Assembly: GCF_000971235.1 (NCBI RefSeq)
Contig: NZ_BBMB01000002.1
Span: 1-64,000 of the forward strand
Length of the DNA stretch: 64,000 nt
Origin: Demequina subtropica
Lineage (GTDB): Bacteria > Actinomycetota > Actinomycetes > Actinomycetales > Demequinaceae
Reading direction: 5' to 3'
In this document: positions 43,788 to 60,897 of the stretch, in pieces
How positions within the stretch are numbered: position 1 is the stretch's first letter
Layout: the number at the start of each line of letters is the position of its first letter
Made by a program: the position numbers and the translations under genes
Notes under the pieces: generated by a model
What the model was told of the DNA's origin: nothing
Database searches by the model: none
The model's input: only the letters and a program-made list of their open reading frames with translations

Positions 43788-43871
43788 GCGCGACGAGGCG
43801 TGCCCGCGCCCGCGCGATAGCCGACGCCGTGTGACCCCCGCATTTCGGGACGCGTCCGCACATGTCTGCGG

Positions 43872-43916
43872 GGTTAACGGTGGCCCATGCCTCCCGCGCA
43901 GGAGTGGCGCTTACCG
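43872..43916 (+). promoter_or_regulatory. Shared two-part control element upstream of the DHA2-type MFS gene
   Basis: GGTTAACGGTGGCCC (43872-43886) is followed, 32 bp start-to-start, by GTGGCGCTTACCG (43904-43916). Both strings and the same 32-bp phasing recur at 45624-45668 before the peptide-type ABC operon. The second string may contain the -10 box (TACCGT at 43912-43917), which would put the first just upstream of -35, an activator-like position. Confidence 0.65.
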
Positions 43917-43983
43917 TGCGGACACTCCTCGGGAACGATCGATCTCATCCACCGCTGTCGATCGACCCCGGGGAGGGGACGCC

Positions 43984-45459
43984 ATGAGCAAGGCATCATC
44001 CGCGCTGCCGAAGGGTGCGCGCGCGACCGCCGGGGGCGCCGTCGGGCTCCTCGTCGCGACCGAGGTCGGCAGCGGCCTGCTCCAGGGGTGGTACGGGCCG
44101 CTGCTCGCCACCATCGGCGAGCGGTACGAGGCGAGCGCGGCGTCGCTCAACCTGGTCGCGGTCGCGTACCTGCTCTCGTCGGTGGTGTTCGTGCCGCTGC
44201 TCACGAAGCTCGGCGACAAGCATGGTCACAAGAAGCTCCTCCTGGTCGCGGTCGCGATCACCGCCGCGGGCTCGTTCATCGTGACGTTCGCGCCGAGCTT
44301 CGGCGTGCTGCTGCTCGGGCGGGTGCTGCAGGGCGCGCTCGTCGCGTTCCTGCCGCTGGAGTTCGCGATCGTGCGCCAGCGTTCGCCCGAGACGGTGGAC
44401 CGCAGCATCGGCGCCCTCATCGCCTCGCTCGCGATCGGTGCCGTCATCGGCGCGGTCGGCGCAGGGCTCCTCGTCACCGCGGCGGGCCTGACCGTCGCGC
44501 TCGCGGTTCCCGGGATCTACTTCACGCTGTGCTTCGTGCTCATCGCCGTGTTCGTGCCCGAGACCGAGACCTCGGGGACCGGGAGCATCGACTGGGCGGG
44601 GATCGGCCTGCTGGGCCTGGGTGTGGCCTCCGTCCTCGGCGGCATCTCCCTGGGCGGACAGATCGGCTGGGGGAACGCGCTCGTCTCGGCGCTGATCGTC
44701 GTCGGGCTCGCCGCCCTCGCGGCCTTCGTGGCCGTCGAGCGGCGCGTCGCCGAGCCGTTCATCGACTTCGACGTCCTGCTGCGCGGAGGCATCGGGCTGC
44801 CGATCGTCATCGGGCTGGTCTTCAGCTCGCAGTCGCTCGGTGCCGCGACCCTGGCCGCGCTGTACGTGCGCGTGGATCCCGAGGTCTACGGGTTCGGGCT
44901 GGGTCTCGACGCCGCTCAGGCGGGTCTCACCCTGTCGGGCATGGCGCTCGCGGGCTTCATGGGATCGCTCGTCGGCGCGCGCGCCGTCGCGCGGTGGGGC
45001 TACCGTCCCACGATGGTCGCAGGCTCGCTGTCCTCGGCAGCCGGGTACCTGCTCATGATCCTCGCGCCCGGATCCGTCGGCCCGTTCACGGTGTGGCTCG
45101 TGCTCTGCGGCATCGGCATCGGCGTCATGACCGCGGTCCTGCCTGCGATCGTGGTCAAGCGAGCGCGACCCGACGCCGTGGCCGTCGTCTCGGGCCTGTA
45201 CAACACGCTGCGCACCGCGATGGGAGCGGCCGCGGGCGCCGCCTTCACCGCGGTGATGGCGGCCTTCCTGGTCGAGGGCACGGGTACCGGCTCGACCGCC
45301 GGCGTCACCTCGTTCACGGGCTACGCCGTGGTGTGGGGATGCGCGGTGGTCCTGTCGCTCGTCGTCGTGGCGCTCGTGCTCCGCCTGCCGAAGGACGTGA
45401 GCGCGCCGGCGTCGGCGGCGACCTCCGACGAGCCGGAGCCCGAGCTCGTGACCGCCTGA
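43984..45459 (+). CDS. MFS transporter, DHA2 (EmrB/QacA-like) type
   Basis: A 491-residue permease with about 14 hydrophobic segments, as in drug:H+ antiporter family 2. The loop 2-3 motif reads LLTKLGDKHGHKKL, the helix-4 RVLQGALVAFLP, and helix 5 has the long small-residue motif SLAIGAVIGAVGAGLLV. ATG 43984 follows GGGGAGGGGAC. It ends at a strong terminator but shares its upstream control element with the following ABC operon, so it may export a product of, or a compound related to, the substrate of that operon. No regulator is adjacent. Confidence 0.87.
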   Translation: MSKASSALPKGARATAGGAVGLLVATEVGSGLLQGWYGPLLATIGERYEASAASLNLVAVAYLLSSVVFVPLLTKLGDKHGHKKLLLVAVAITAAGSFIVTFAPSFGVLLLGRVLQGALVAFLPLEFAIVRQRSPETVDRSIGALIASLAIGAVIGAVGAGLLVTAAGLTVALAVPGIYFTLCFVLIAVFVPETETSGTGSIDWAGIGLLGLGVASVLGGISLGGQIGWGNALVSALIVVGLAALAAFVAVERRVAEPFIDFDVLLRGGIGLPIVIGLVFSSQSLGAATLAALYVRVDPEVYGFGLGLDAAQAGLTLSGMALAGFMGSLVGARAVARWGYRPTMVAGSLSSAAGYLLMILAPGSVGPFTVWLVLCGIGIGVMTAVLPAIVVKRARPDAVAVVSGLYNTLRTAMGAAAGAAFTAVMAAFLVEGTGTGSTAGVTSFTGYAVVWGCAVVLSLVVVALVLRLPKDVSAPASAATSDEPEPELVTA

Positions 45460-45469
45460 TCGCGTGCGT

Positions 45470-45509
45470 CGACGGAGGGGCCGGACCGCGAGGTCCGGCC
45501 CCTCCGTCG
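45470..45509 (+). terminator. Strong terminator with GNRA tetraloop
   Basis: An 18-bp perfect stem (45470-45487 with 45492-45509) closes a GCGA loop, 11 nt after the MFS stop codon. It separates the MFS transcript from the ABC operon despite their shared control motifs. Confidence 0.88.
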
Positions 45510-45572
45510 TGTGCTCCCCGGCACAGCGCGCACGCAGGGCCGGACCGGGAGGCGGCACCGTGTGTCGGGCGC

Positions 45573-45668
45573 GTTAACGCTGGCACCACCGCCGTGACAC
45601 ATGCGACACGCAGGTGTCGTGCCGGTTAACGGTGGCCCGGACCTAACCCCGGTCCGTGGCGCTTACCG
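45573..45668 (+). promoter_or_regulatory. Control region of the dipeptide-type ABC operon with repeated GTTAAC elements
   Basis: Contains GTTAACGCTGGC (45573-45584), GGTTAACGGTGGCCC (45624-45638) and GTGGCGCTTACCG (45656-45668). The last two are identical in sequence and 32-bp phasing to 43872-43916; the first is an extra copy of the left half, 52 bp upstream. Together they look like binding sites for one regulator, probably an activator, 66 bp or more before the start at 45734. Confidence 0.65.
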
Positions 45669-45733
45669 GGCCAGCCCCCGCCTAGCAGGATCGATGTCGT
45701 CACAGAAGTCGACAACGAACCGAGGAGGTGACT

Positions 45734-46678
45734 GTGGCGAAGTATCTGGCCAAGCGGCTCGGGTCGGCGCTGCTCGTGCTCTTCGCGCTCTCCCTGCTGT
45801 CCTTCGGGATGGTGCGGATGATGCCCGGCGACCCCGCGCTGCAGTACCTGAACATCGACAACCCGGATCCGAACCAGCTCGCCGAGGTGCGCGCCGAGCT
45901 CGGGCTCGACCGGCCCTGGACCACGCAGTACCTCGAGTGGGCGGGCGGCGTCCTCACCGGCGACTTCGGCTCCTCGATGACCAAGTCTCAGGAGATCGGG
46001 ACGATGCTCGGGGACCGCTTCCCGGTCTCGCTGCAGCTCGCGATCATCGCGGTCATCGTCGGCCTCGTCATCGGGTTGCCGAGCGGCGTGGTCTCCGCGG
46101 TGCGCCAGGGCACGCCCCTCGACGCGGTGATCCGCGGAGGATCCTTCCTGGCGCTGTCGATCCCGGCCTTCGCGATCGGCGCCGTGCTCATCATGGTCAA
46201 CGCGCTCACGCTCAAGCTTCCGCTCATCGGCTACACGCCGTGGGCGCAGGACCCGCTCGGGTCGATCCTGTCGCTCCTGGTGCCGGCGCTCGTGCTGTCG
46301 CTCGCCATGTCCGCGGTGATCTCGCGCTACTCGCGCGGCACCGTGCTCGACACCCTCTCCCAGGACTACATCCGCACGGCCCGCTCCAAGGGCGTGCCCA
46401 CCGGGCGCATCGTCCGCGGCCACGCGCTGCGCAACGCGCTCATCCCCGTGACCACCGTGGTCGGCATCCAGCTCGCCGCGCTCATCGGCGGCACCGTGGT
46501 GATCGAGAGCATCTTCACCATCCCCGGCATGGGCTCGATGCTCATCGAGGCGATCAACAGCTCCGACTACCCGACCATCCAGGCATGTGTGCTGGTGCTC
46601 GGCGCGTGCTTCGTGATCATCAACCTCATCGTCGACCTTCTCTACCCCGTCATCGACCCCCGGGTGCGTGCCTCATGA
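45734..46678 (+). CDS. ABC transporter permease, DppB/OppB-like
   Basis: A 314-residue permease of peptide/nickel-type importers: N-terminal helix (LGSALLVLFALSLLSFGMVRMMPGDPA), the conserved MPGDPA loop, about six helices, and the EAA loop DYIRTARSKGVPTGRIVRGHALRNALIPV. GTG 45734 is chosen over GTG 45728 because AGGAGG at 45723-45728 is correctly spaced 5 nt before it. First gene of a seven-gene operon. The cytoplasmic EAA loop docks the ATPases at 49340 and 50344. Ligands of this class include di- and oligopeptides but also many amides and sugars. Confidence 0.92.
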   Translation: MAKYLAKRLGSALLVLFALSLLSFGMVRMMPGDPALQYLNIDNPDPNQLAEVRAELGLDRPWTTQYLEWAGGVLTGDFGSSMTKSQEIGTMLGDRFPVSLQLAIIAVIVGLVIGLPSGVVSAVRQGTPLDAVIRGGSFLALSIPAFAIGAVLIMVNALTLKLPLIGYTPWAQDPLGSILSLLVPALVLSLAMSAVISRYSRGTVLDTLSQDYIRTARSKGVPTGRIVRGHALRNALIPVTTVVGIQLAALIGGTVVIESIFTIPGMGSMLIEAINSSDYPTIQACVLVLGACFVIINLIVDLLYPVIDPRVRAS

Positions 46679-47631
46679 TCAAGCTGAAGAAGAACGGCGC
46701 CCTCATCGGCGGAGCCGCGATCCTCGCGCTCCTCACCGTGTACGCGCTCCTCGGCCCGCTCGTCGGCGGCTACGACCCCAACCTCACCACCGGCGGCCCG
46801 TTCGAGGGCCCGTCGGGGGAGCACTGGCTCGGCACCGACAACATCGGCCGCGACAACTTCGTCCGCCTCGCCATCGCGACGCGGTACGCGATCGTGATCT
46901 CGCTGGTGTCCTCAGTCATCTCGATGGTGATCGGCACCGCGATCGGCCTCGTCGCCGGGTACGCGGGCGGCCGCCTCGACAACGTGCTCATGCGCGGCAC
47001 CGAGATCATCATGGCGATCCCCGCGATCCTGTTCGCGCTGGTGATCCGCGTCATCATCGGCCCCGGCTTCATCCCGCTCATCATCGCGATGGCGATCATC
47101 GGGGCGCCGGGCTTCGCCCGCATCATGCGGTCGCCCATCCTGGTGCTGCGCGACCGCGACTTCGTGGTCGCCGCGGAGATCGCTGGCGTGCGCAAGCCGT
47201 TCATCGCGCTCAGCCACCTGCTGCCGAACGCGACCACGCCGATGCTGGTGAACTTCGCCTCGACCGCCTCGCTCGCGGTGCTCATCGAGTCGAGCCTCAG
47301 CTTCCTGGGCCAGGGCGTGCAGGCACCCGACCCGAGCGCGGGCCGCATGATCTCCGAGTCCATGCGCTACATGCAGCTGGACCCGCTGCTCATCGTGCTC
47401 CCCGCGATCCTCATCACGCTGCTCACCGTGGCGTGGAACCTGCTGGCCGACGGCGTCCAGCTGGCGCTGTCCCCGAAGGCCGGCAACCTCGCCGTGCCGA
47501 CCCGGGGTCGGCGGCGGAAGAAGACGTCCGGCGCGGCTGGCAGTGCCGCCGCCGGCACGACGGTGGTGGCGGGCGAGGGACCCGTGCCCGCCGACACCCC
47601 CCAGGACGAGGCATCCCCGGCCCGGGTCTGA
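46675..47631 (+). CDS. ABC transporter permease, DppC/OppC-like
   Basis: A 318-residue second permease. The N-terminal helix is followed by HWLGTDNIGRDNFVRLAIATRYAIVISL, diagnostic of DppC/OppC proteins, then about five helices and the EAA loop DFVVAAEIAGVRKPFIALSHLLPNATTPMLV. A basic and Ala/Gly/Pro-rich cytoplasmic tail of about 45 residues is unusual for the family and may be disordered. ATG 46675 overlaps the stop of the first permease by four bases. Confidence 0.92.
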   Translation: MIKLKKNGALIGGAAILALLTVYALLGPLVGGYDPNLTTGGPFEGPSGEHWLGTDNIGRDNFVRLAIATRYAIVISLVSSVISMVIGTAIGLVAGYAGGRLDNVLMRGTEIIMAIPAILFALVIRVIIGPGFIPLIIAMAIIGAPGFARIMRSPILVLRDRDFVVAAEIAGVRKPFIALSHLLPNATTPMLVNFASTASLAVLIESSLSFLGQGVQAPDPSAGRMISESMRYMQLDPLLIVLPAILITLLTVAWNLLADGVQLALSPKAGNLAVPTRGRRRKKTSGAAGSAAAGTTVVAGEGPVPADTPQDEASPARV

Positions 47632-47674
47632 CCCGCCGCGCACCGTCCACCCATCCAAGGAGGAGACCCGCATC

Positions 47675-49255
47675 ATGAGGACCATCACCCGAGGGATCGG
47701 AGCAGCGGCCGCCGTCGCCATGCTCGGCCTCACGCTCGCCGCATGCTCCAGCGGCACGGTGGACACCGGCGCCACCGAGTCGTCCGAGCCGCTGCCCGCG
47801 GTCGAGGGCGGCGCGCTCGTCTACGCGAGCGACGTCCAGCCGCTCGCCGGCGGCCTCGACCCGTACGTCGCGCAGGCCTTCGCGAACTCGAACGCGCTCG
47901 TCCAGATCTACGAGCCCCTGCTCGCCAAGGACGCCGACGGCACCATCATCCCGTGGCTCGCCGAGTCGTGGGAGCAGGTCGACGACCTCACCTACACGTT
48001 CACCCTCCGCGAGGGCGTCACGTTCTCGGACGGCACGCCGCTGACGGTCGATGACGTGGTCTTCTCTCTCGAGCAGATCCGCGCCTCGTCCGCCGGTGCG
48101 AGCTACTTCCCCACGGTGGACCAGATCACGGCGCTCGACGAGGCGACGGTGCAGCTCACCACGCTCGTCCCCGACGCCACGATCCTCAACATCCTGTCCT
48201 ACCGCGCCATGGCGATCGTCAACCAGGCCTGGTACGAGTCCACCTCCGAGGAGGACCGCCAGACCACCGCGCTCGGCACCGGCCCGTTCGTGCTCGACGA
48301 GTGGCAGGACCAGGTCTCGATGACCTTCACCGCCAACGAGGTCTACTGGGGCGAGGGCCCCGACGTCGACACGCTAGAGTTCGACTTCATCGGCGACGAG
48401 AACGCGCGTGCCGCGCAGCTGCGCCAGGGCTCGGGCACCGACATGGCGTGGTTCCGCGACCCGATCCAGGTCCAGTCGCTCGAGTCCGAGGGCTACACCG
48501 TCGGTGAGAACGCCGAGACCCGTTCGCTCACCATGTACGTCAACGCCTCGGACGGCCCGCTCGCGGACGTCAAGGTGCGCCGGGCCGTCTCGAAGGCCAT
48601 GGACCGCCAGGCGCTGATCGACTTCGCGATGGGCGGCATGGCCGAGCCCAGCCTCGTGGTCCCGGTCGGCGACCCGTGGGGCATCGCGCCCGACGAGTCG
48701 ACCCCGAACTACGCGCACGACGTCGAGGGCGCCAAGGCGCTGCTCGCCGAGGCTGGCCAGGAGAGCCCGACCATCACGCTGACCTACGCGTCGGACGCGG
48801 CCTTCGCGCTCGACGTGCCGATGGTCGAGGTCCTCAAGCAGCAGCTCGCCGAGGCGGGCATCACCCTCGAGCTCGTGGGCAAGCCCTGGACCGAGGTGCT
48901 GCAGTCGTACATCGGCGGCACCTGGACCGACCTGGTGCTCGTGCCCGGCGTCTACATGCCGGACCCGTCGGCGTACTTCGCCACCGTGCTCACCCCCGGT
49001 CTGCCGATGGTGACCACCGTGACCGCCGAGTCGCCCGAGGTCGCGCTGTACATGCAGCTGCGCTCCACGTTCGACGAGGCCGAGCGTGCCGAGGTCCTCG
49101 CGCAGCTCGAGACCGCCGTCGCGGAGAACGTCAACGTGCTGGTGGCGTACACCGGCCCCCAGCGCTACGAGGTCTGGGGCGACACGGTCACCGGCTACGA
49201 GGTCGACCCGTACACCTACCGCGAGGGCCTCGCCACCACGGCGAAGACCTCCTGA
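47675..49255 (+). CDS. ABC transporter substrate-binding lipoprotein, DppA/OppA-like (SBP family 5)
   Basis: A 526-residue exported solute-binding protein with lipobox ending at C24 (TLAACSSG). Family 5 blocks are clear: ALVQIYEPLLAKDADGTIIPWLAESWEQVDDLTYTFTLREGVTFSDGTPLTVDDVVFSLE, and the later DVKVRRAVSKAMDRQALI. It has the expected length for dipeptide, nickel or amide binders. A strong AAGGAGGAG site precedes ATG 47675. It captures the operon's substrate outside the membrane. The downstream amidohydrolase and aminotransferase suggest a compound with an amide and an amino group. Confidence 0.93.
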   Translation: MRTITRGIGAAAAVAMLGLTLAACSSGTVDTGATESSEPLPAVEGGALVYASDVQPLAGGLDPYVAQAFANSNALVQIYEPLLAKDADGTIIPWLAESWEQVDDLTYTFTLREGVTFSDGTPLTVDDVVFSLEQIRASSAGASYFPTVDQITALDEATVQLTTLVPDATILNILSYRAMAIVNQAWYESTSEEDRQTTALGTGPFVLDEWQDQVSMTFTANEVYWGEGPDVDTLEFDFIGDENARAAQLRQGSGTDMAWFRDPIQVQSLESEGYTVGENAETRSLTMYVNASDGPLADVKVRRAVSKAMDRQALIDFAMGGMAEPSLVVPVGDPWGIAPDESTPNYAHDVEGAKALLAEAGQESPTITLTYASDAAFALDVPMVEVLKQQLAEAGITLELVGKPWTEVLQSYIGGTWTDLVLVPGVYMPDPSAYFATVLTPGLPMVTTVTAESPEVALYMQLRSTFDEAERAEVLAQLETAVAENVNVLVAYTGPQRYEVWGDTVTGYEVDPYTYREGLATTAKTS

Positions 49256-49260
49256 CCGGC

Positions 49261-49298
49261 GGTCCCCGGCGGGCGGCGCACACCGCCCGCCGGGGACC
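49261..49298 (+). terminator. Intra-operon hairpin after the binding-protein gene
   Basis: GGTCCCCGGCGGGCGG (49261-49276) pairs perfectly with its complement at 49283-49298 around CGCACA, 5 nt after the stop codon and 41 nt before the next start. It probably stabilises the upstream message or partly terminates, lowering ATPase expression. The first ABC operon has the same arrangement at 8487. Confidence 0.6.
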
Positions 49299-49339
49299 CG
49301 CACCCCACACCCACCCGCTTCACGAACGAGGAGGACGCC

Positions 49340-50347
49340 ATGACCGCGACGATCGCCACCACCGACGCGCTCGCCGTCGAGGACCTCACCATCAGCTACG
49401 GCGGCGGCACCCCGGTCGTCTCGGGGGTCGACCTGCGCGTCGGCCCCGGCGAGATCCTGGGCGTGATCGGCGAGTCGGGCTGCGGGAAGTCGAGCATCGG
49501 CTTCGCGGTGCTGGGCCTGCTGCCCGCGAGCGCGCGCGTCGACGCCGACCGGCTCGACGTCGGCGAGCACGGGATGCTCGACGCCGACGAGTCCGACTGG
49601 AACCAGGTCCGCGGCCGCGTCGCGTCGATGGTGTTCCAGGAGCCGATGTCCGCGCTCAACCCGTGCATGCGGGTGGGGGCGCAGATCGCCGAGGTGCTGC
49701 TGGTGCACGGCCTCGCCGACAAGAAGGCGGCCCACGCCCGCGCGCTCGACCTGCTCCGCCTGGTGCAGGTGCCCGAGCCCGAGCTGCGCGCCAAGCAGTT
49801 CCCCCACCAGATGTCCGGCGGCATGCGACAGCGCATCGTCATCGCCATGGCGATGGCCGCCAACCCCCAGCTCCTGGTCGCCGACGAGCCCACGACGGCG
49901 CTCGACGTCACGGTCCAGGCGCAGATCCTCGACCTGCTCGACCGCATGCGGCGCGAGACCGGCGCCGGCGTGCTGCTCATCAGCCACGACCTGGGCGTCA
50001 TCGCGCAGACGTGCGACCGCGTCGTCGTGATGTACGCCGGCGAGATCGTCGAGGAGGGCGTCCCGACGGAGGTCCTCGCGAACCCGTCGCATCCCTACAC
50101 CGCGGCGCTCGTCGCCTCGATCCCGACCACCACCACCGCCGCGCGCGAGGACCTGCCGATGATCCCCGGCGGCGTCCGTGACGCCGATCGGGAGACCTCC
50201 GGCTGCCGCTTCGCCGCACGATGCGCGTTCGCGGTCGAGACCTGCTCCTCGCCTCAGGCGCTGGTCGAGGTGGAGCCATCGCACACGGCGCGCTGCTGGC
50301 GCAGCACCGAGCTCGATCTCACCGCACTCACGGAGGTGACGGCATGA
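49340..50347 (+). CDS. ABC transporter ATP-binding protein, DppD/OppD-like
   Basis: A 335-residue nucleotide-binding subunit. Walker A GESGCGKS starts at G44, Q-loop VFQEPMSALNP, signature MSGGMRQR, Walker B LLVADEPTTALD, switch LLISHDLGVI, and the oligopeptide-transporter C-terminal extension with clustered cysteines (GCRFAARCAFAVETC) that in some relatives binds an iron-sulfur cluster. ATG 49340 follows GAGGAGG. Its stop overlaps the start of the partner ATPase (ATGA), consistent with heterodimer formation. Confidence 0.94.
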   Translation: MTATIATTDALAVEDLTISYGGGTPVVSGVDLRVGPGEILGVIGESGCGKSSIGFAVLGLLPASARVDADRLDVGEHGMLDADESDWNQVRGRVASMVFQEPMSALNPCMRVGAQIAEVLLVHGLADKKAAHARALDLLRLVQVPEPELRAKQFPHQMSGGMRQRIVIAMAMAANPQLLVADEPTTALDVTVQAQILDLLDRMRRETGAGVLLISHDLGVIAQTCDRVVVMYAGEIVEEGVPTEVLANPSHPYTAALVASIPTTTTAAREDLPMIPGGVRDADRETSGCRFAARCAFAVETCSSPQALVEVEPSHTARCWRSTELDLTALTEVTA

Positions 50348-51393
50348 CCCTCACGGACCTCGACATCACGCCCCGGCCGCGCCCGGTCGACGATCCCCTG
50401 ATGGTCCTCAACGGCGTCCGCCAGGAGTTCCCCGCCGCCGGGGGCCGCACGGTCCACGCGCTCGACGGCGTCACCCTCGAGGTGCAGCGCGGCGAGACGC
50501 TCGGCATCGTGGGGGAGTCCGGCTGCGGCAAGTCGACCCTCGCACGCGCCGCGCTCCTGCTGCGGAAGCCCACGGCCGGGGAGATCCGCTTCGACGGCAA
50601 GGACGCGCTCGCGATGCGCGGCGGGCGGCTCCGCGCGCATCGTCGCCGCGCCCAGATGGTCTTCCAGGATCCCAACGACTCGCTCGACCCGCGCTACAAG
50701 GTGCTGCGCTCCGTCATGGAGCCCCTGCTGGCGGCCGGCGTCCCGCGCGGCGAGGCCCGGGCCAAGGCGCTCGAGGCGCTCGAGGCCGTGGGCGCGCCCG
50801 ACGGCGCCGCCGGTCGCTTCCCGCACGAGTTCTCGGGCGGTCAGCGCCAGCGCATCGCGATCGCCCGCGCGATCGCGACCGAGCCCGAGCTGGTGGTGCT
50901 CGACGAGCCGACCAGCGCGCTCGACGTCTCGATCCAGGCGCAGATCCTCAACCTGCTCCTCGAGCTGCAGGAGAGCAAGCAGCTCACCTACATGTTCATC
51001 TCGCACAACCTCGCGGTGATCCGCCACCTCTCGCACCGCGTGGCGGTCATGTACCTGGGCCGCATCGTCGAGGTCGGGCCCGCGTCGCAGGTGCTCGCGG
51101 ACCCGCTGCACCCGTACACCGCGGCGCTGCTGTCCGCGGTGCCCGACCCGGACGCCGGCAAGCGTGAGCGCATCATCCTCCAAGGCGACCCGCCCAGCCC
51201 CACCCAGCGCGCCGCCGGTTGCGCGTTCGCGAGCCGCTGCTGGCTCGCGACCGAGCAGTGCCGGACGGAGGCGCCGCCGCTGGTCCGCACCGATGTCGCG
51301 GCCAACCCCACCGGGGGCCACCTGGTCGCCTGCCACCGTCCCGGCGAGGGCCAGGAGGCGCTGCGCCTCGGCCTGACCCCCGCATCGTCCTGA
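50344..51393 (+). CDS. ABC transporter ATP-binding protein, DppF/OppF-like
   Basis: A 349-residue nucleotide-binding subunit pairing with the previous protein. Walker [10 protein letters not shown] from G57, Q-loop [11 protein letters not shown], signature FSGGQRQR, Walker [13 protein letters not shown], switch FISHNLAVI, and the C-terminal oligopeptide-transporter module with [18 protein letters not shown] 50344 overlaps the upstream stop. The last codons before the stop contain the recurrent CGCATCGTCC 10-mer (51381-51390). Confidence 0.94.
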
Positions 51394-51412
51394 AAGAACC
51401 GAAGGAGAAGTC

Positions 51413-53083
51413 ATGACCGACACCGTCACCATCCTCACCGCGAAGCTGGTCCGCACGCTCGACGACGCCGTGCCGACCGGGACCGCGGTCGCGATCCGCG
51501 GCGACAAGATCCTCGCCGTGAGCGACGTCGAGCAGCTGCTCTCCGCGTACCCGGGCGCCGAGGTCGACGACCGCTACGCCGACCAGGTCCTCACGCCCGG
51601 CTTCGTCGAGGCCCACTCCCACATGGGCGCGGGCATGGACAGCCCGTTCTACCTGGGGTACTTCCCGCGCACGATGCCCGACGGCACCCCGCTTCCCGGC
51701 GCGCAGACGTGGCAGGGCGTGCTCGACGCGCTCAAGGCGTGGGACGCCGAGCTGCCCGAGGGCGAGGTGCTCAACGCGCGCGGCCTGGACATGCTCTTCT
51801 TCCCCGGCGAGGCACTCGACCGTCACGCGCTCGACTCCGTCAGCTCGACCCGCGGCGTCTACGTCATCCACGCGAGCGGCCACGTCGCGACCGCCAACTC
51901 GGTGCTCCTCGAGAAGGCCGGCTACGGTGCAGACACCGACATCGAGGGCGTGGTCAAGGGCGAGGACGGGCTGCCCACGGGCGAGCTGCAGGAGATGGGC
52001 GCGATGATGCCCGTGATGGCGGCGCTCGGCATGGACTTCAGCAAGGGCATGACCAGCGAGAAGGGGATGTACGACTTCGCCGCGGACGCCCGGAACCACG
52101 GCTGCACCACCGCGACCGATCTCGCGAGCTTCGACGCGGTCCGCCCCGGCGGCCTGGGCCTGCTCACCGAGGTCACCTCGCGCGAGGACTTCTCCCTCCG
52201 CCTGGTCCCCGCGACCTTCGGCGGCATGACCAAGTCCGCCGAGGAGGCCCAGCAGATGGCCGGCCTGGTCAAGTCGATCCAGGACAAGGGCAACGCCAAG
52301 CTCCACCTCGGCACGGTCAAGCTCATGCTCGACGGCTCGATCCAGCAGCACACCGCCAAGCTGCAGGACCCCGGCTACGTCTGCGGCCACGATGACGGCA
52401 TCTGGAACACCGACGCCGACACCTTCCGCGCGCAGGTGAGCGCCTTCCACAAGGCGGGGCTCAACATCCACGTGCACTGCAACGGCGACGAGGCCACGGA
52501 GGTCTTCTGCGACGCCGTCGAGTCCGTGCTCGCGGAGGCCCCGCGCTGGAACCACCGCCACACGGTCACCCACTCGCAGCTCACCACCCGTGCGCAGTAC
52601 AAGCGCATGGCGGAGCTCGGCATGTGCGCCAACATCTTCTCCAACCACATCTGGTACTGGGGCGACCAGCACATCGACCTCACCGTCGGCCAGGACCGCG
52701 TCCAGCGCATGAACGCGGCCCGCACGGCGCTCGACGCCGGCGTGAAGATCGCGCTGCACTGCGACACCCCGGTGACGCCGCTCGACCCGCTGGCCACCGC
52801 CTCGTACGCGGCGGAGCGTCGCACCCCGACGGGACGCTCGTGGGGCGACGCGGAGCGGATCTCCGTCAAGGAGGCCCTCGAGGCGATCACCATCGGCCCG
52901 GCGTACGTCCTCAAGCTCGACCACCTCGTCGGCTCGATCGTCCCTGGCAAGTTCGCGGACTTCGCGGTGCTCGACCGCGACCCGTTCGAGGTCGCGGAGC
53001 CCCAGGAGCTGCGCGACATCACCGTCCTCGGCACCGTCGTCGGCGGCGTCCACTTCCCGTCGCCGGTCCCCGCGACCGTCTGA
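51413..53083 (+). CDS. Amidohydrolase family 3 (YtcJ-like) metal-dependent hydrolase
   Basis: A 556-residue cytoplasmic enzyme with a small beta-sandwich (VTILTAKLVRTLDD; GKFADFAVLDRDPFEV) flanking a TIM barrel. Metal-binding positions are visible as HSH (VEAHSHMG), a barrel histidine in IHVHCNGDEA, another in HRHTVTHSQ and a late aspartate in LHCDTPVTPLDP. The YtcJ-like group hydrolyses N-substituted amides, formamides or N-acyl amino acids. AAGGAG precedes ATG 51413. Placed after the ABC genes, it probably hydrolyses the imported substrate, releasing an amine for the aminotransferase. Confidence 0.9.
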   Translation: MTDTVTILTAKLVRTLDDAVPTGTAVAIRGDKILAVSDVEQLLSAYPGAEVDDRYADQVLTPGFVEAHSHMGAGMDSPFYLGYFPRTMPDGTPLPGAQTWQGVLDALKAWDAELPEGEVLNARGLDMLFFPGEALDRHALDSVSSTRGVYVIHASGHVATANSVLLEKAGYGADTDIEGVVKGEDGLPTGELQEMGAMMPVMAALGMDFSKGMTSEKGMYDFAADARNHGCTTATDLASFDAVRPGGLGLLTEVTSREDFSLRLVPATFGGMTKSAEEAQQMAGLVKSIQDKGNAKLHLGTVKLMLDGSIQQHTAKLQDPGYVCGHDDGIWNTDADTFRAQVSAFHKAGLNIHVHCNGDEATEVFCDAVESVLAEAPRWNHRHTVTHSQLTTRAQYKRMAELGMCANIFSNHIWYWGDQHIDLTVGQDRVQRMNAARTALDAGVKIALHCDTPVTPLDPLATASYAAERRTPTGRSWGDAERISVKEALEAITIGPAYVLKLDHLVGSIVPGKFADFAVLDRDPFEVAEPQELRDITVLGTVVGGVHFPSPVPATV

Positions 53084-53108
53084 CCCGGTACCTCCGAAGG
53101 AGACTGAG

Positions 53109-54476
53109 ATGCCCATCCCGAACAGCCCCGCCGGGCAGGAGACCTACACCCTGGACCGTTCCCACGTGTTCCACTCGTGGTCCGCGCAGAAGGCGCTCGA
53201 CCCCATGGTGATCACCGCGGGCGAGGGCTCGTACCTGTGGGACGCGGACGGCAAGCGCTACCTCGACTTCTCGTCGCAGCTGGTCTACACGAACGTGGGT
53301 CACCAGCACCCCAAGGTGGTCGCGGCGATCCAGGAGCAGGCGGCGACGCTCGCGACCATCGCCCCGGCCCACGCCAACGACAAGCGCTCGCTCGCGGCGA
53401 AGCTCATCACCGATCTCGCGCCCGAGGGCATGAACAAGGTGTTCTTCACCAACGGCGGCGCCGAGTCGATCGAGAACGCGATCCGCATGGCGCGCCTGCA
53501 CACCGGCCGCACCAAGGTGATGTCGCAGTACCGCAGCTACCACGGGTCCACCGCGACGGCCATCCAGGTCACGGGCGACCCCCGCCGCTTCCCGAACGAG
53601 TTCGTGCCGGCCGGCACCGTCCACTTCTTCGGGCCCTTCCTGTACCGCACGGTCTTCAACGCGACCACCGAGCAGGAGGAGTGCGAGCGTGCGCTCGAGC
53701 ACCTCGAGCAGATGATCACGTTCGAGGGGCCTGGCACCATCGCGGCCATCGTCCTCGAGACCGTGCCGGGCACGTCGGGCATCATGCCGCCGCCCCCGGG
53801 CTACCTCGCGGGCGTGCGGGAGCTGTGCGACCGCTTCGGGATCGTGATGATCTGCGACGAGGTCATGGCCGGCTTCGGGCGCACCGGCGCGTGGTTCGCG
53901 ATCGACCACTACGGGATCACGCCCGATCTCATCACGTTCGCCAAGGGCGTCAACTCCGGCTACGTGCCCATGGGCGGCGTCATCATCCGCGACGAGATCG
54001 CGGCGACGTTCGACGAGCGTGCGTTCCCGGGCGGCCTCACCTACTCGGGCCACCCGCTCGCGGCCGCCGCCGCGGTCGCGACCATCACCGCGATGCATGA
54101 GGAGCAGGTGGTCGAGAACGCCGCCCGCATCGGCTCCGAGGTGTTCGGGCCCGAGCTGCGCGCGATGGCCGAGCGCCACCCCTCCGTGGGCGACGTCCGC
54201 GGCCTGGGCGTGTTCTGGGCGCTCGACCTGGTCAAGGACCGCGAGACCAAGGAGCCGCTCGCGCCGTACGGCGGCGCCGCACCGGCGGTGACCGGCGTCC
54301 TGGCCGCTGCGAAGGAGGCAGGGCTGCTGCTCTTCAACCAGTTCCACCGCATCCACATCTGCCCCCCGTGCAACCTCTCCGACGAGGAGGCGCGTGAGGG
54401 CCTGGCGATCCTCGACCAGGCGCTCGAGGTGGCCGATGCCGCATACGAGGGCGTGCGGGAGCCCGTGCTCGTCTAG
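53109..54476 (+). CDS. Class III PLP-dependent aminotransferase, omega-amino acid:pyruvate type
   Basis: A 455-residue fold-type I aminotransferase. The PLP lysine is K279 (LITFAKGVNSG), with ICDEVMAGFGRTG as the cofactor-ring aspartate block and VFFTNGGAESIENAIRMAR as the phosphate-binding region. The N-terminus (DRSHVFHSWSAQKALDPMVIT) and C-terminus resemble taurine:pyruvate and beta-alanine:pyruvate aminotransferases. GAAGGAG precedes ATG 53109. Last gene of the operon; it should transfer an amino group from the hydrolysis product to pyruvate or 2-oxoglutarate. The exact donor is unknown; taurine-like omega-amino compounds are a reasonable guess given the neighbouring MocR/TauE pair. Confidence 0.88.
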   Translation: MPIPNSPAGQETYTLDRSHVFHSWSAQKALDPMVITAGEGSYLWDADGKRYLDFSSQLVYTNVGHQHPKVVAAIQEQAATLATIAPAHANDKRSLAAKLITDLAPEGMNKVFFTNGGAESIENAIRMARLHTGRTKVMSQYRSYHGSTATAIQVTGDPRRFPNEFVPAGTVHFFGPFLYRTVFNATTEQEECERALEHLEQMITFEGPGTIAAIVLETVPGTSGIMPPPPGYLAGVRELCDRFGIVMICDEVMAGFGRTGAWFAIDHYGITPDLITFAKGVNSGYVPMGGVIIRDEIAATFDERAFPGGLTYSGHPLAAAAAVATITAMHEEQVVENAARIGSEVFGPELRAMAERHPSVGDVRGLGVFWALDLVKDRETKEPLAPYGGAAPAVTGVLAAAKEAGLLLFNQFHRIHICPPCNLSDEEAREGLAILDQALEVADAAYEGVREPVLV

Positions 54477-54628: not shown

Positions 54629-56185
54629 TCAGGAAGGTGAGGGCGGCTCCGCCAGCTGCTCGCGGATGGCCTCCGCCAGGAGCTCGACGCCCCGCGGGAT
54701 GGCCTGGAGGGCGATCGCGTTGAAGCCGATGCGGATCGCGTCGCGGCGGGCGTCCTGCAGGTAGAAGCGCTCGCCGGCGTCGACGATCACGCCGCGTCGA
54801 CGCGCGAGCTCCGTCACGCGGGTCCCATCGAAGCCCTCGGGGCCGTTGAGCCAGACGCTCAGGCCGCCCGCGGGGACCGGCGGCAGCTCGAACGGCAGGT
54901 GGCGCTCGAGCTCCTCCATGAGCGTCTCGTACTTCCGCGCCAGGTGACGGCGATGCTGACGCAGGGCGCGGTGGTACTCGCCGGACTCGATGAAGAGGCC
55001 GAGCGCGCGCTGGAGATGCCCGGACGGATGCTTGGTGAGGTAGCGCCGGCGCTCGCGCAGCGCGCTGATGAGCGCCGCATCGGCCACCACGAACCCGAGC
55101 CGCAGGCCCGGCGCCACGAACTTCGAGAAGGTGCCGACGTAGATGACGCGGCCGGTGCGGTCGAGCGACTTGAGCGACGGCGTGGGGCGGCCCTTGAACC
55201 GCACCTCCGAGTCGAAGTCGTCCTCGATCACGAGCGCGTCCTCGCTCTGCGCGGCACGCAGGATCGCGGCGCGACGCGCGTACGTCGTGGTGACCGCGGT
55301 CGGGTGGTGGTGGCTCGGCGTGAGGTACACGAACTCGGACCGCGCCGCGTCGGCGCGCGAGACGCGTGCGCCTCCGCTGTCGACCTCGAGGGGGTGCAGC
55401 GTCGCGCCGGCGTTCCTGAAGATGTGCCACGCGTCGACGTAGCCGGGGTTCTCCACGCTCACGGTGTCGCCCTCGTGGATCAGCAGATCGGCGAGCAGCG
55501 AGAGCGCCTGCTGCGCGCCGTTGGTGATGATGACCTCGGACGGCGTCACCGACATCCCGCGCGGCGGCAGGATCTCGCGGCACAGGGCCTGCACCAGGAG
55601 CTCGTCGTCGCCGTCGACCGAGTCGCGGAGGCTCGGCGCGAGGTGCGGGCCCGCGAGCGCATCGTTGAGCGAGCGCAGCCAGGCCCGCGCGGGGAAGGTC
55701 GCCAGCTCGGGCTGACCCGGCAGGAACGGGAAGGGGTAGCGGTGCCAGTCGGCGTGCGCGGCGGCGTGCTGGAGGTCCTCGCCGAGCGGCCGCGGCAGCC
55801 GGGCGGCCCAGTCGACCTGCCCGGTGGGGACCGGCCGCGAGCGCGAGGGGCGCGCCGGGGCCGCCGATGCCGGCCCGCTCACCGGCGCCGCGGTGATCCG
55901 CTCGGTGGCGGGGTACAGCCCGGACCGCGGACGCGACTCGATGAGCCCCAGCGCCGTGAGCTCCTGGTACGCGGCGGAGACGGTGTTGCGCGACACCCCG
56001 AGGACGCCCGCGAGGTGGCGGGACGAGGGAAGCGGGCGGTTGGGCTTGAAGCGACCCTCGAGCAGGGACTGCTCGAGGAACCGTCGCACCTGCTGGAACA
56101 GCGGCTCGCGGCTGTCCGGGTCGATGTACTGGCGAGCGCGCGCGCCGATCGCGGCGTCGGTCTCGCCGTGCAGGTCGTCGATCAC
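54629..56185 (-). CDS. MocR-family (GntR HTH plus aminotransferase-like) transcriptional regulator
   Basis: A 518-residue PLP-dependent regulator. N-terminal GntR-type winged helix (EPLFQQVRRFLEQSLLEGRF, then SRHLAGVLGVSRNTVSAAYQELTALGLIESRPRSGLYP) joined by a linker to a class I aminotransferase fold. The PLP lysine is K355 (GTFSKFVAPGLRLGF). Relatives (GabR, PdxR, TauR) sense amino compounds that form aldimines with PLP. GTG 56185 is chosen because AGGAGG (plus-strand 56193-56198) lies 7 nt upstream; an ATG at 56218 would overlap the upstream gene. It faces the aminotransferase operon, which it may control, and follows the exporter gene by 29 nt. Confidence 0.92.
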   Translation of the reverse strand: MIDDLHGETDAAIGARARQYIDPDSREPLFQQVRRFLEQSLLEGRFKPNRPLPSSRHLAGVLGVSRNTVSAAYQELTALGLIESRPRSGLYPATERITAAPVSGPASAAPARPSRSRPVPTGQVDWAARLPRPLGEDLQHAAAHADWHRYPFPFLPGQPELATFPARAWLRSLNDALAGPHLAPSLRDSVDGDDELLVQALCREILPPRGMSVTPSEVIITNGAQQALSLLADLLIHEGDTVSVENPGYVDAWHIFRNAGATLHPLEVDSGGARVSRADAARSEFVYLTPSHHHPTAVTTTYARRAAILRAAQSEDALVIEDDFDSEVRFKGRPTPSLKSLDRTGRVIYVGTFSKFVAPGLRLGFVVADAALISALRERRRYLTKHPSGHLQRALGLFIESGEYHRALRQHRRHLARKYETLMEELERHLPFELPPVPAGGLSVWLNGPEGFDGTRVTELARRRGVIVDAGERFYLQDARRDAIRIGFNAIALQAIPRGVELLAEAIREQLAEPPSPS

Positions 56186-56214
56186 CGGGGAACCTCCTGA
56201 GGGACGTGCCGGCG

Positions 56215-56949
56215 TCATGCCGCCACCCCTCGCGCCGCGAGCACGATGCCCGACACGAGCGACAGCACCAGCGCACCGGTCCGCACCACGCCGGGGGGCA
56301 GCCGCCGCACGAGCGGCGCCGACACGAGCGCGCCCACGATCACGGCGGGCGTCAGTGCGAGCCCGGAGAGCGCATCGGCTCCCAGGGTGACGGCGCCCTC
56401 GCCGGCTCGCGCCAAGGATAGCGACGCGAGCGACAGTGCCGACGTCACCGCGAAGTACGCGGACAGGGTCGAGCGCATCGTCCGTACGTCGTCGGGCCGG
56501 TAGACCACGGCCATCGGGGGACCCGGCAGCGCGGCGATCGGGGTGAGCGCCCCGCCGAGCGCGCCGGCCGCCGCGACGGACGCGGGGGTCATGCGCGCCT
56601 TCCAGGCGAGCAGCGAGAGGGCCGATGCGGCGGCGACGACCGCTCCGACCGTCACCTGGGTCGCGGCCTCAGGGGTCACGCGTGCGACCGCGGTCCCGAC
56701 GAGGATGCCGGGGACCGCGGCGACGGAGGTGCGCACCAGGTCGGGGACGCTCAGCCATCGGCGCTCCGTCCAGGCCACCGCGCACATCACCACCACCGTG
56801 ACGGCGAGCACCGCGCCGATGCCCAGCTCGGGCGCGACGAGCACGAGCAGCGGCACCGCGACGATCCCGAACCCCATCCCCGTCGCGGCCTGTACCACGG
56901 TGGCCAGCACGACGATGAGCGAGGCGGCCGCCCAGGCCAACGCCGTCAT
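56215..56949 (-). CDS. TauE/SafE (TSUP) family transporter
   Basis: A 244-residue membrane protein with about seven or eight hydrophobic segments. The N-terminal VVQAATGMGFGIVAVPLLVLVAPELGIGAVLAVTVVV, containing the Gly-rich repeat, and the repeated half near ALGGALTPIAALPGPPMAVVY are typical of the family, which exports sulfite, sulfoacetate or related anions. It heads a two-gene operon with the MocR regulator. In other bacteria TSUP exporters accompany taurine or sulfonate breakdown; a taurine-like aminotransferase is nearby, but no sulfoacetaldehyde acetyltransferase is present, so the link is tentative. Confidence 0.87.
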   Translation of the reverse strand: MTALAWAAASLIVVLATVVQAATGMGFGIVAVPLLVLVAPELGIGAVLAVTVVVMCAVAWTERRWLSVPDLVRTSVAAVPGILVGTAVARVTPEAATQVTVGAVVAAASALSLLAWKARMTPASVAAAGALGGALTPIAALPGPPMAVVYRPDDVRTMRSTLSAYFAVTSALSLASLSLARAGEGAVTLGADALSGLALTPAVIVGALVSAPLVRRLPPGVVRTGALVLSLVSGIVLAARGVAA

Positions 56950-57179
56950 CGTGCCTCTCCGGGCGGCGGGCAGGGGAAGTGGAGCATGTCAGGCATCGTC
57001 CTGGACCCGCGTCCTGCCGGCCAGGTCCACGTCGAGGCGAAGACGGCGGCCAGAAGTTACGTCGGGGAAACACGGTGGCACCCGGGCTGTGGCATCGTCT
57101 GGACCTGGCTCCCGGGGCGGGGGCCAGCCAGGCTTGAGGGGTACGCCGCGCATCCGGCGCGGCCCGACAGGAGGTAGAG

Positions 57180-57914
57180 ATGTCACAGCGCACGGCGGTC
57201 GTCACGGGAGCCAGCAGCGGGATCGGCGCGGCCAGCGCGCGCGCCCTCGCGGCCGACGGATGGCACGTGGTGATCGGAGCCCGTCGCGTGGACCGTCTCG
57301 AGGAGCTCGCGGCGGAGATCGGCGGCACGGCCATCGCTCTCGACGTCACGGATCAGGCGTCGGTGGACGCGTTCGCCGCGCAGATCGAGTCCTGCGACCT
57401 GCTCCTCAACAACGCCGGCGGCGCGCTCGGCACCACCTCGATCGCCGAGGGCGACATCGACGAGTGGCAGTGGATGTACGACGTGAACGTGCTCGGCACG
57501 CTCCGCGTGACCAAGGCGCTCCTGCCCAAGCTCGTCGAGTCCGGCGACGGCCAGGTCATCAACATCGGCTCGATCGCCGCGCGCGAGCCGTACAAGGGCG
57601 GCGGCGGGTACAACGCCGCCAAGCACGCGGTCGCCGCGATGACGCGCGTGCTGCGCATCGAGCTGCTGGGCCAGCCGGTCCGCGTGAGCGAGATCGACCC
57701 CGGCATGGTCGAGACCGAGTTCTCGCTCGTGCGCTTCGGTGGCGATGCCGACAAGGCCGCGAAGGTCTACGAGGGCGTCACGCCCATGAGCGCCGACGAC
57801 ATCGCGGACGCGGTGCGGTGGGTCGCGTCGCGCCCCAAGCACGTCAACATCGACCAGATCCTCATGCTCGCGACCGCGCAGACCTCCGCGCAGGTGGTGC
57901 ATCGCGAACTCTGA
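57180..57914 (+). CDS. SDR-family NADP-dependent oxidoreductase, YdfG-like
   Basis: A 244-residue classical short-chain dehydrogenase. Cofactor motif TGASSGIG (9-16), Arg-Arg after the second strand (GARRVDRLEE) indicating NADP preference, NNAGG, the catalytic serine in NIGSIAAREP and YxxxK as YNAAK, then DPGMVETEF. This pattern resembles YdfG-type 3-hydroxy acid (serine, 3-hydroxypropionate) dehydrogenases. AGGAGGTAGAG precedes ATG 57180. Divergent from the TSUP gene across 230 bp; a metabolic link to the amino-compound operon is possible but unproven. Confidence 0.9.
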   Translation: MSQRTAVVTGASSGIGAASARALAADGWHVVIGARRVDRLEELAAEIGGTAIALDVTDQASVDAFAAQIESCDLLLNNAGGALGTTSIAEGDIDEWQWMYDVNVLGTLRVTKALLPKLVESGDGQVINIGSIAAREPYKGGGGYNAAKHAVAAMTRVLRIELLGQPVRVSEIDPGMVETEFSLVRFGGDADKAAKVYEGVTPMSADDIADAVRWVASRPKHVNIDQILMLATAQTSAQVVHREL

Positions 57915-60304: not shown

Positions 60305-60897
60305 AGGGCCGCCTCCAGCTCGCGGCCGAAGGTGAACGCGCGGACCAGCCCCACGACGCCGAGCACCACGAAGACGGCCGCCGCGATCCACACGAGCACG
60401 GTCGCGGTGATCGCCGGGAAGGCGATTACCGCGATGCCCGCGAGCAGGCCCACGATGCCGTAGGCGAGGGCCCACGCGCGCGAGCGTGCCTTCCCCGACT
60501 CGAGGATCACCATGATCCCGTCGATGATCCAGCCGATCCCGACGGTGAGCGCGACCACGATGAGCAGCACCGCGGTCGAGGCCTCGAGGTTGCGGAGCAT
60601 CACCACGCCGGCGATGAGCATGAGCACGCCCATGACGATCGACAGCGAGCGCAGGCCCGCGGAGACCGCCGCGCCGAGGACGCCCATCGCGATGCGCGCG
60701 ACGCCCGCGATCACGAAGTACACGCCGGCGAGCGCCGCGCCGACCGCGAGCGTCCGCCCGGGCCACACGATCAGCGCGACCCCGACCGCGAGCGCGACCG
60801 CGCCCAGCACCGCGAACATGACCCTGACCAAGGTGATCGCGCGCGCGGTCAGCGCGCGTGCGTCCAGCTCGAACCCCAGGTGTCTCTGCTCCTGCAT
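60301..60897 (-). CDS. HdeD-like DUF308 membrane protein
   Basis: A 198-residue protein made almost entirely of six short membrane helices arranged as three similar pairs (VMFAVLGAVALAVGVALIVWPGRTLAVGAALAGVYFVIAGVARI; SIVMGVLMLIAGVVMLRN; YGIVGLLAGIAVIAFPAITATVLVWIAAAVFVVLGVVGLVRAF). This matches the DUF308/HdeD family, sometimes linked to acid stress. ATG 60897 follows GAGAGGAG. It shares an operon and overlaps with the AI-2E-type transporter. No catalytic or binding residues can be named. Confidence 0.87.
   Translation of the reverse strand: MQEQRHLGFELDARALTARAITLVRVMFAVLGAVALAVGVALIVWPGRTLAVGAALAGVYFVIAGVARIAMGVLGAAVSAGLRSLSIVMGVLMLIAGVVMLRNLEASTAVLLIVVALTVGIGWIIDGIMVILESGKARSRAWALAYGIVGLLAGIAVIAFPAITATVLVWIAAAVFVVLGVVGLVRAFTFGRELEAAL

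Follow-up and report, generated by a model that had tools for sequence, protein, structure and literature searches.

A putative composite promoter with GlnR-type and TGG boxes at an apparent taurine nitrogen-scavenging cluster of Demequina subtropica

The DNA analysed here, called the window throughout, is a 64,000-nucleotide stretch of the actinomycete Demequina subtropica (contig NZ_BBMB01000002.1, positions 1 to 64,000), in which a pair of short motifs with fixed spacing lies once upstream of a transporter gene of the major facilitator superfamily (MFS) and once upstream of a peptide-type ABC transporter (opp) operon. The evidence supports placing the pair in two promoters of one small putative regulon. 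The genes concerned, which make up an apparent system for scavenging nitrogen from taurine, are listed here with the matches that identify them.

43984..45459, plus strand: MFS transporter (Pfam MFS_1, 4.4e-37)
45734..54476, plus strand: operon oppB-oppC-substrate-binding protein (family 5)-oppD-oppF-amidohydrolase-class III aminotransferase (Pfam)
51413-53083, plus strand: amidohydrolase of 556 aa within the operon (Amidohydro_3, PF07969; Pfam)
53109-54476, plus strand: class III aminotransferase, a relative of the taurine aminotransferase Toa (Pfam, PDB match)
54629..56218, minus strand: MocR-type regulator with a GntR winged helix-turn-helix and an aminotransferase-like domain, the proposed pathway regulator (Pfam)
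56215..56949, minus strand: TauE/SafE-family exporter, overlapping the start of the MocR gene (Pfam TauE, 8.6e-21)
57180..57914, plus strand: short-chain dehydrogenase/reductase (SDR), possibly an IsfD-like sulfoacetaldehyde reductase, divergent from TauE-MocR (PDB match)

The left-hand motif GGTTAACGGTGGCCC is located at 43872-43886 and 45624-45638 and the right-hand motif GTGGCGCTTACCG at 43904-43916 and 45656-45668, with a start-to-start spacing of 32 bp in both pairs; the exact phased pair reported in an initial annotation of this DNA was thereby found again, as was its third half-copy, which is present as CGTTAACGCTGGCAC at 45572-45586. That the arrangement is unlikely to arise by chance, as the annotation held, is borne out by counts: with up to two mismatches, the left motif (GGTTAACGSTGGCCC) has three matches in the window against 0.21 expected, and none of 100 shuffles reaches three. 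At the same tolerance the right motif alone is less special, having eight window matches (two of them exact) against 2.7 expected, with one shuffle in 100 reaching eight. A genome-wide search for the pair had been proposed as a check. The genome, 3,075,577 bases in 23 contigs, has three copies of the left motif (GTTAACGSTGGCNC) and two of the pair (GTTAACNNTGGC, 10-30 bases, GGCGCTTACC), all of them in this cluster, which rules out a dispersed or common intergenic repeat; the reversed-sequence control of the whole genome gave no match for either pattern.

Over 88 bp the MFS and opp promoters are identical at 55 positions, comprising 39 of 42 core columns, which were picked after inspection, and 16 of 46 non-core columns, and the 150 bp upstream are 37% identical without gaps. 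From CTTACC to the start codon the distance is 72 bp for the GTG at 45734 (oppB) and 74 bp for the ATG at 43984 (MFS). The claim that the pair controls both units thus stands as to promoter location, while control itself is what we infer. It is exceedingly improbable that the pair is a chance repeat or a promoter copied without shared regulation. Duplication of the cluster is seen in D. mangrovi (G014), so the two promoters may share one ancestor, but the letters outside the core have diverged while the core has been kept, and conservation extends to Agromyces. In D. mangrovi (L048:1681-6190), a second amidohydrolase-Toa pair followed by an MFS gene lies directly upstream of the opp operon and has its own promoter copy, and the MFS promoter of the window may be a remnant left by the loss of such a pair.

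Twelve promoters from the upstream regions of nine genomes, together with one from D. pelophila and two from Agromyces, form a set of 15 in which the register is fixed throughout: a GTGwC-like element, six free bases, GTnAAC, the GTGGCCC box, 16 free bases and TGGnnCTT. The GTGGCCC box is exact in 13 and variant in the two Agromyces promoters, and GTGGCC(C) and TGG..CTT are among the letters invariant in the first 12. All 15 sites also have a -35-like hexamer 17 bp before xAnnnT (TTAYCG or TTAYCC in 13, TTCTCG in one, TTCACG in D. pelophila). Judged by this conservation, the right-hand motif fits best as a -35 region, and its earlier reading as a -10 element was set aside given the conserved 17-bp spacing to xAnnnT; a consensus sigma-70 scan of 43780-45760 returned no matches, that is, no near-consensus hexamers. 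The best upstream copy of the promoter's first half is exactly 52 bp away in 11 of the 15, 51 bp away in one and elsewhere in three. Not every promoter has a strong distal copy: set against random maxima, the 95% level (-0.05 bits) is passed by 11 of the 12 copies that lie 51 or 52 bp away, and the 99% level (5.2 bits) by seven. Three STGG-type boxes lie in 45560-45735, and the predicted elements of the two window promoters other than GlnR-type boxes are as follows.

45580..45586, plus strand: distal direct TGG box CTGGCAC, a proposed MocR box (STGG-type; predicted binding)
45632..45638, plus strand: proximal direct TGG box GTGGCCC, the second half of the left-hand motif and a proposed MocR box (conservation; predicted binding)
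45655..45668, plus strand: right-hand motif CGTGGCGCTTACCG, a TGG box over the -35 (TTACCG, 45663-45668) of the opp promoter (conserved spacing; predicted role)
45686..45691, plus strand: predicted -10 CAGGAT of the opp promoter (xAnnnT in 15 of 15 sites; no consensus-scan match)
43880..43886, plus strand: TGG box GTGGCCC of the MFS promoter (sequence match)
43903..43916, plus strand: right-hand motif of the MFS promoter, with -35 TTACCG at 43911-43916 (sequence match)
43934..43939, plus strand: predicted -10 AACGAT of the MFS promoter

The initial annotation stated that no regulator is encoded next to either gene, which would leave the pair to a transcription factor encoded elsewhere or to an alternative sigma factor. 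A spacing of 32 bp is incompatible with the -35/-10 pair of a sigma factor, and a sigma promoter with the two motifs as its hexamers is ruled out on that ground. In addition, the MocR-type gene (54629-56218, minus) is a convergent neighbour of the operon's last gene, 152 bp away, and is the only regulator among 15 compared window genes (the AsnC-type regulator at 60512 was left out) that is present in all 12 motif loci, 10 from Demequina and two from Agromyces; recognition by an unlinked factor is accordingly very improbable. The protein has the domains of the MocR subfamily (GntR, 6.6e-15, residues 42-102; Aminotran_1_2, 1.3e-21, residues 210-499), and its best PDB match is GabR.

The upstream part of the left-hand motif points to a different protein. 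The ammonium transporter gene amtB is a standard target of the nitrogen regulator GlnR, and it was found in 46 of 47 genomes of the family. We built a GlnR profile from amtB upstream regions only, with no site from this cluster and with the six spacer columns neutral; it started from the amtB and glnA boxes of the window genome and was then refined on 30 loci, one per genome in 30 family genomes, taken from the 55 amtB matches listed (orientation was set from weak similarity for L190, L207, L210 and L215). These same 30 regions yield [GT]TnAC-n6-GAAACA, with GTnAC-n6-GAAACA in 23 and scores above 18 bits in 28, which provides a candidate GlnR-type motif for Demequina and its family; the boxes in these 28 loci are an indirect sign of GlnR itself. 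Read on the minus strand, the left unit is TTAAC-n6-GACAC, i.e., AC-n9-AC, close to the published GlnR boxes gTnAc-n6-GaAAc and t/gTAAC-n6-Gc/aAAC (PMC10704036) and AC/T-n9-AC (PMC3662644). This reading replaced one of the unit as a plus-strand element with n10 spacing. When both strands of the window (127,966 positions) were scanned with the amtB-derived profile, the top three sites, 57056(+) at 20.2 bits, 45561(-) at 15.1 and 45613(-) at 7.2, all fell in promoters of the cluster. The left-hand motif thus overlaps an activator-type (GlnR-type) site, in agreement with the earlier suggestion that it holds an activator site.

57056..57072, plus strand: perfect GlnR-type box GTTAC-n6-GAAACA in the divergent TauE-MocR/SDR promoter (rank 1)
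45561..45577, minus strand: distal GlnR-type box TTAAC-n6-GACACA, including part of the third half-copy (rank 2 of 127,966)
45613..45629, minus strand: proximal GlnR-type box TTAAC-n6-GACACC, overlapping the first letters of the left-hand motif (rank 3 of 127,966)
43861..43877, minus strand: GlnR-type box TTAAC-n6-GACATG in the MFS promoter (rank 12 of 127,966, 4.0 bits)
45594..45610, plus strand: middle GlnR-like box GTGAC-n6-GACAC, at the same place in opp promoters and weak alone (rank 18)

Across 11 Demequina and Agromyces loci, the profile's best match is the TauE/SDR promoter in 10 (this region is cut by the locus end in L044), and the opp boxes are within the top five in six of seven opp loci; in two more distant loci, L102 and L103, no cluster promoter stood out. 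Genome-wide, GTNAC-n6-GAAAC occurs at five sites (none in the reversed control), one of them upstream of amtB, one upstream of glnA and one in the TauE/SDR promoter. The genome has two more GTNAC-n6-GAAACA boxes elsewhere than in the window, in L180 (C13:287065) and L181 (C18:51323). In the glnA promoter (L182, C19:94508) a GTGGCAC lies a few bases from the GlnR box, resembling the layout of the taurine promoters; this could be either chance or an extended GlnR module. The published box is found exactly only at 57056 and in weak form at the MFS promoter, in G032, in G029 and in one Agromyces. With good confidence, we take the AC-n9-AC elements to be GlnR sites.

GlnR boxes account for the upstream half of the left-hand motif and for the TauE/SDR site, which raises the question of whether GlnR alone controls the cluster, with the TGG boxes serving as extended -35 or other promoter letters and MocR regulating something else. 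The GTGGCAC near the GlnR box of glnA would suit such an arrangement. Against it, GTGGCC(C) and TGG..CTT are invariant in the first 12 promoters, nowhere else in the genome is there a strong copy of the full arrangement, and it is confined to genomes with MocR although the GlnR target amtB is nearly universal in the family, all of which makes control by GlnR alone unlikely. Because the GlnR boxes leave GTGGCCC, the right-hand GTGGCGC and this confinement unexplained, the motif looks composite, made up of a GlnR-type box and TGG boxes, and not the site of a single regulator as had been assumed.

The confinement was measured with a sequence-only profile of the 88-bp promoter, trained on the 12 promoters and run over the 47 family genomes, in 10 of which it detects the promoter (the strict pair pattern does so in three). 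It gave 13 sites at E <= 1.1e-8. Every one of the 10 genomes with a gene for this MocR (E <= 1e-60) has at least one of them, and the 37 genomes lacking it have none; below these sites the best match has E = 0.0031, and each genome has some match at E <= 1, which is chance level. Twelve of the 13 strong sites trained the profile. The thirteenth, in D. pelophila (G018), was held out and scored 7.3e-10 upstream of Toa and TauCBA-like genes, and held-out sites upstream of the amidohydrolase in two Agromyces scored 1.1e-9 and 1.3e-9, with the same MocR encoded alongside. No strong site was found by this profile upstream of an unlinked amidohydrolase relative in D. pelophila. One survey sampled 59 genomes and lacked some of the 47, G014 among them. 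Phylogenetic co-occurrence, which the annotation had put forward as a way to identify the binding protein, thus singles out MocR: since strong sites are restricted to MocR genomes and the held-out Agromyces sites stand beside the same gene, the likely regulator is encoded at the cluster's end. We consider it somewhat more probable than not that MocR reads the TGG boxes.

The same co-occurrence (10 of 10 genomes against 0 of 37, plus the two Agromyces) would also be expected if MocR were the sole reader of the motif, with the -35 box and the tandem GTGTC-N6-GTTAAC-GTGGCCC units as its half-sites and with the likeness to GlnR boxes a coincidence. MocR operators, as predicted, do consist of two to four helically spaced boxes (PMC5320631), the 52-bp tandem would agree with this, and GlnR scores are weak in G032, G029 and one Agromyces. 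Such a reading is difficult to reconcile with the independent amtB-derived profile, which puts the same sites on top in the window and in most relatives, and with the box of the TauE/SDR promoter, an exact GlnR consensus; we regard coincidence as improbable.

The reading that both proteins act on the promoter must also be held against several observations that weigh against it. For GlnR, the window's third-ranked site, at 7.2 bits, is only just ahead of the fourth, which scores 6.5 and lies outside the cluster promoter sites; base composition by itself would give the genome about five GTNAC-n6-GAAAC sites, so that their number proves nothing and only their places count; opp-type boxes have GACAC or GTCAC as their b-site in place of GAAAC; the box of the MFS promoter reaches only 4.0 bits; and the proximal boxes score negatively in G032 (-3.9), G029 (-7.4) and one Agromyces (-5.3). 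For MocR, the co-occurrence is among related genomes and does not represent independent events, and the 88-bp search of the genome set used stricter filters that lose weak matches. Loci of Mycolicibacterium and Gordonia, whose MocR is 51% identical, have no site by either profile (best E = 0.36), and extension of the promoter type to these genera was rejected. The 88-bp profile likewise misses the TauE-MocR promoter (E = 6.8). A segment profile places it 12th of 127,820; the segments of this profile were picked after inspection, and its gaps were fitted once that promoter had been seen. Autoregulation of MocR through the same motif, for which an alignment first looked strong, was downgraded given the miss by the 88-bp profile and is only suggested. 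A conserved part of the TauE-MocR promoter turned out to be a GlnR-type box. PdxR controls pdxST, which is usually adjacent to it. The window MocR passes the NCBIfam cut-off for PdxR (342.4 against 320 bits), its best NCBIfam model is PdxR and no TauR model is among the matches listed; a GTGG core is likewise present in the published PdxR consensus AAAGTGGW(-/T)CTA (PMC4494728). PdxR function is unsupported by context: pdxS lies on contig C12 and MocR on C22, and the 13 PdxR-model matches listed all lie on contigs other than C12. The NCBIfam model may be too inclusive where taurine-linked MocR proteins are concerned.

The link to taurine comes from the neighbouring genes. The aminotransferase has as its top PDB match the taurine:2-oxoglutarate aminotransferase 6jix (388.8 bits; next, 263.5), and with this as its closest solved relative it is a putative Toa. 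For the SDR, a probable short-chain dehydrogenase (2nwq, 180.4 bits) comes first and sulfoacetaldehyde reductase (6ixj, 173.6 bits) second; Toa and the SDR IsfD carry out steps of taurine nitrogen assimilation to isethionate (PMC6616044). Among 79 loci with relatives of this MocR, some of them cut short by contig ends, a Toa relative of at least 60% identity is present in 15 of the first 16 listed and in none of the other 63 (one of these, L109, has an E-value equal to that of the last of the 16), which ties this MocR group to taurine. In D. pelophila (L097:11720-16087), where the promoter is of the same type, TauABC-like genes beside MocR replace Opp and the amidohydrolase; that operon consists of the aminotransferase and three ABC genes, each with a taurine transporter model as its best NCBIfam match, at scores under the equivalog cut-offs. 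Mycolicibacterium canariasense similarly has a Toa relative, an SDR and three taurine-transporter-like ABC genes beside MocR. Since Opp and Toa accompany an amidohydrolase whose Pfam family includes taurine-releasing enzymes, a taurine amide is the likely substrate of the window system.

The MFS protein had been labelled an exporter. MFS genes follow the amidohydrolase and aminotransferase genes in two Demequina and two Agromyces loci, and in G029 and the two Agromyces loci, where amidohydrolase, Toa and MFS stand together, the DNA fetched showed no relative of Opp; given these contexts, import appears at least as likely as export and the label is unproven. One further feature lies between the MFS gene and the opp promoter.

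45470..45509, no strand assigned: perfect 18-bp hairpin without a T-run (read from sequence)

The hairpin is a possible insulator or terminator. A similar one, judged by eye, precedes opp in D. rhizosphaerae (G020).

In the model we propose, the pair forms the core of a composite promoter that depends on activators and would turn on taurine scavenging, probably from conjugates, and GlnR, responding to nitrogen limitation, and a TauR-like MocR, responding to taurine, probably act on it together. In downstream order each promoter has three elements: (a) a minus-strand GlnR-type box TTnAC-n6-GnnAC, or near it; (b) a direct TGG box GTGGCCC two bases after it; and (c) a second direct TGG box, GTGGCGC, 24 bp on, over the poor -35 TTACCG, with the xAnnnT -10 following 17 bp later. 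The opp promoter has a second copy of (a) and (b) exactly 52 bp, or about five helical turns, upstream. Under nitrogen limitation GlnR would bind the AC-n9-AC boxes, the MocR/TauR-like protein would sense taurine (or its pyridoxal 5'-phosphate adduct) and bind the direct TGG boxes, and the two would jointly recruit RNA polymerase to a promoter too weak alone; from the positions of the boxes upstream of and over the -35 we infer activation rather than repression. A taurine conjugate imported by Opp or the MFS protein would then be hydrolysed by the amidohydrolase, Toa would move the amino group to 2-oxoglutarate, the SDR would reduce the sulfoacetaldehyde to isethionate and TauE would export it.

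More tentatively, Demequina and Agromyces may share a two-input promoter of interleaved, helically phased GlnR and TauR-like MocR boxes that allows conjugated taurine to be used only when nitrogen is low and taurine is sensed, the amidohydrolase being a cytoplasmic N-acyl-taurine amidase fed by a peptide-type ABC transporter. MocR/TauR regulons, GlnR boxes and taurine nitrogen assimilation are each already known, and their combined architecture is unusual; in a literature search for papers mentioning GlnR and taurine, neither word appeared in the titles or abstract beginnings. An anonymous motif becomes a testable regulon, with candidate regulators for both parts and a corrected likely promoter geometry. 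Genes otherwise annotated as 'peptide ABC transporter' and 'exporter' gain a probable role in taurine nitrogen supply, and a substrate is suggested for one member of the large, mostly uncharacterised PF07969 amidohydrolase family.

Several known systems bear comparison. In Sinorhizobium meliloti, PtauA is activated by TauR in a taurine-dependent manner (PMC4254191). Among predicted MocR regulons, 59% show either a pair of direct boxes with an inverted one or else two to three direct boxes, and TGG or TGT is present in most boxes (PMC5320631). TauR regulons include taurine aminotransferase genes, and proteobacterial TauR2 regulons contain tauE, oppABCDF and COG1574 genes (PMC5320631); COG1574 is named YtcJ (PMC13081902), and the window amidohydrolase belongs to the same Pfam family, PF07969. 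The window thus resembles both in its MocR-type regulator, in the tauE, opp, aminotransferase and COG1574-like genes beside it and in boxes with a TGG group, its regulation being predicted from this gene content. It differs from TauR, whose consensus is direct repeats of CTGGACYTAA, in having STGGMSC boxes at 24 and 52 bp beside GlnR-type boxes; these are direct boxes as well and match the TauR consensus in part only. It differs from TauR2 regulons in having an aminotransferase, none being listed in the available description of those regulons (PMC5320631).

The actinomycete GlnR regulon is similar in placing AC/T-n9-AC boxes upstream of nitrogen-scavenging genes (PMC10704036, PMC3662644), and GTNAC-n6-GAAACA is found here at amtB, glnA and the TauE/SDR promoter; the opp-type boxes are different, with their GACAC/GTCAC b-site and paired TGG boxes. 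Taurine genes were not seen among the GlnR targets in the available parts of that literature (PMC10704036, PMC3662644). The PF07969 bile salt hydrolases of Bilophila set taurine free from its conjugates with bile acids and, with lower efficiency, from other N-acyl taurines (PMC13081902). The window amidohydrolase, compared with these metalloenzymes by family and length only, is of the same Pfam family, whereas BwBSH1 is secreted, 101 kDa in mass and has an extra C-terminal domain (PMC13081902). A length of 556 aa argues against that extra domain and is nearer to the short Bilophila relatives (482-572 aa), whose activity on taurocholate is much weaker or not detectable (PMC13081902). Finally, like the Toa-IsfD-IsfE and Toa-TauF clusters of taurine nitrogen assimilation (PMC6616044), the window has a Toa relative and an SDR related to sulfoacetaldehyde reductase together with a putative exporter; it differs from those clusters in having Opp and an amidohydrolase in place of TauABC.

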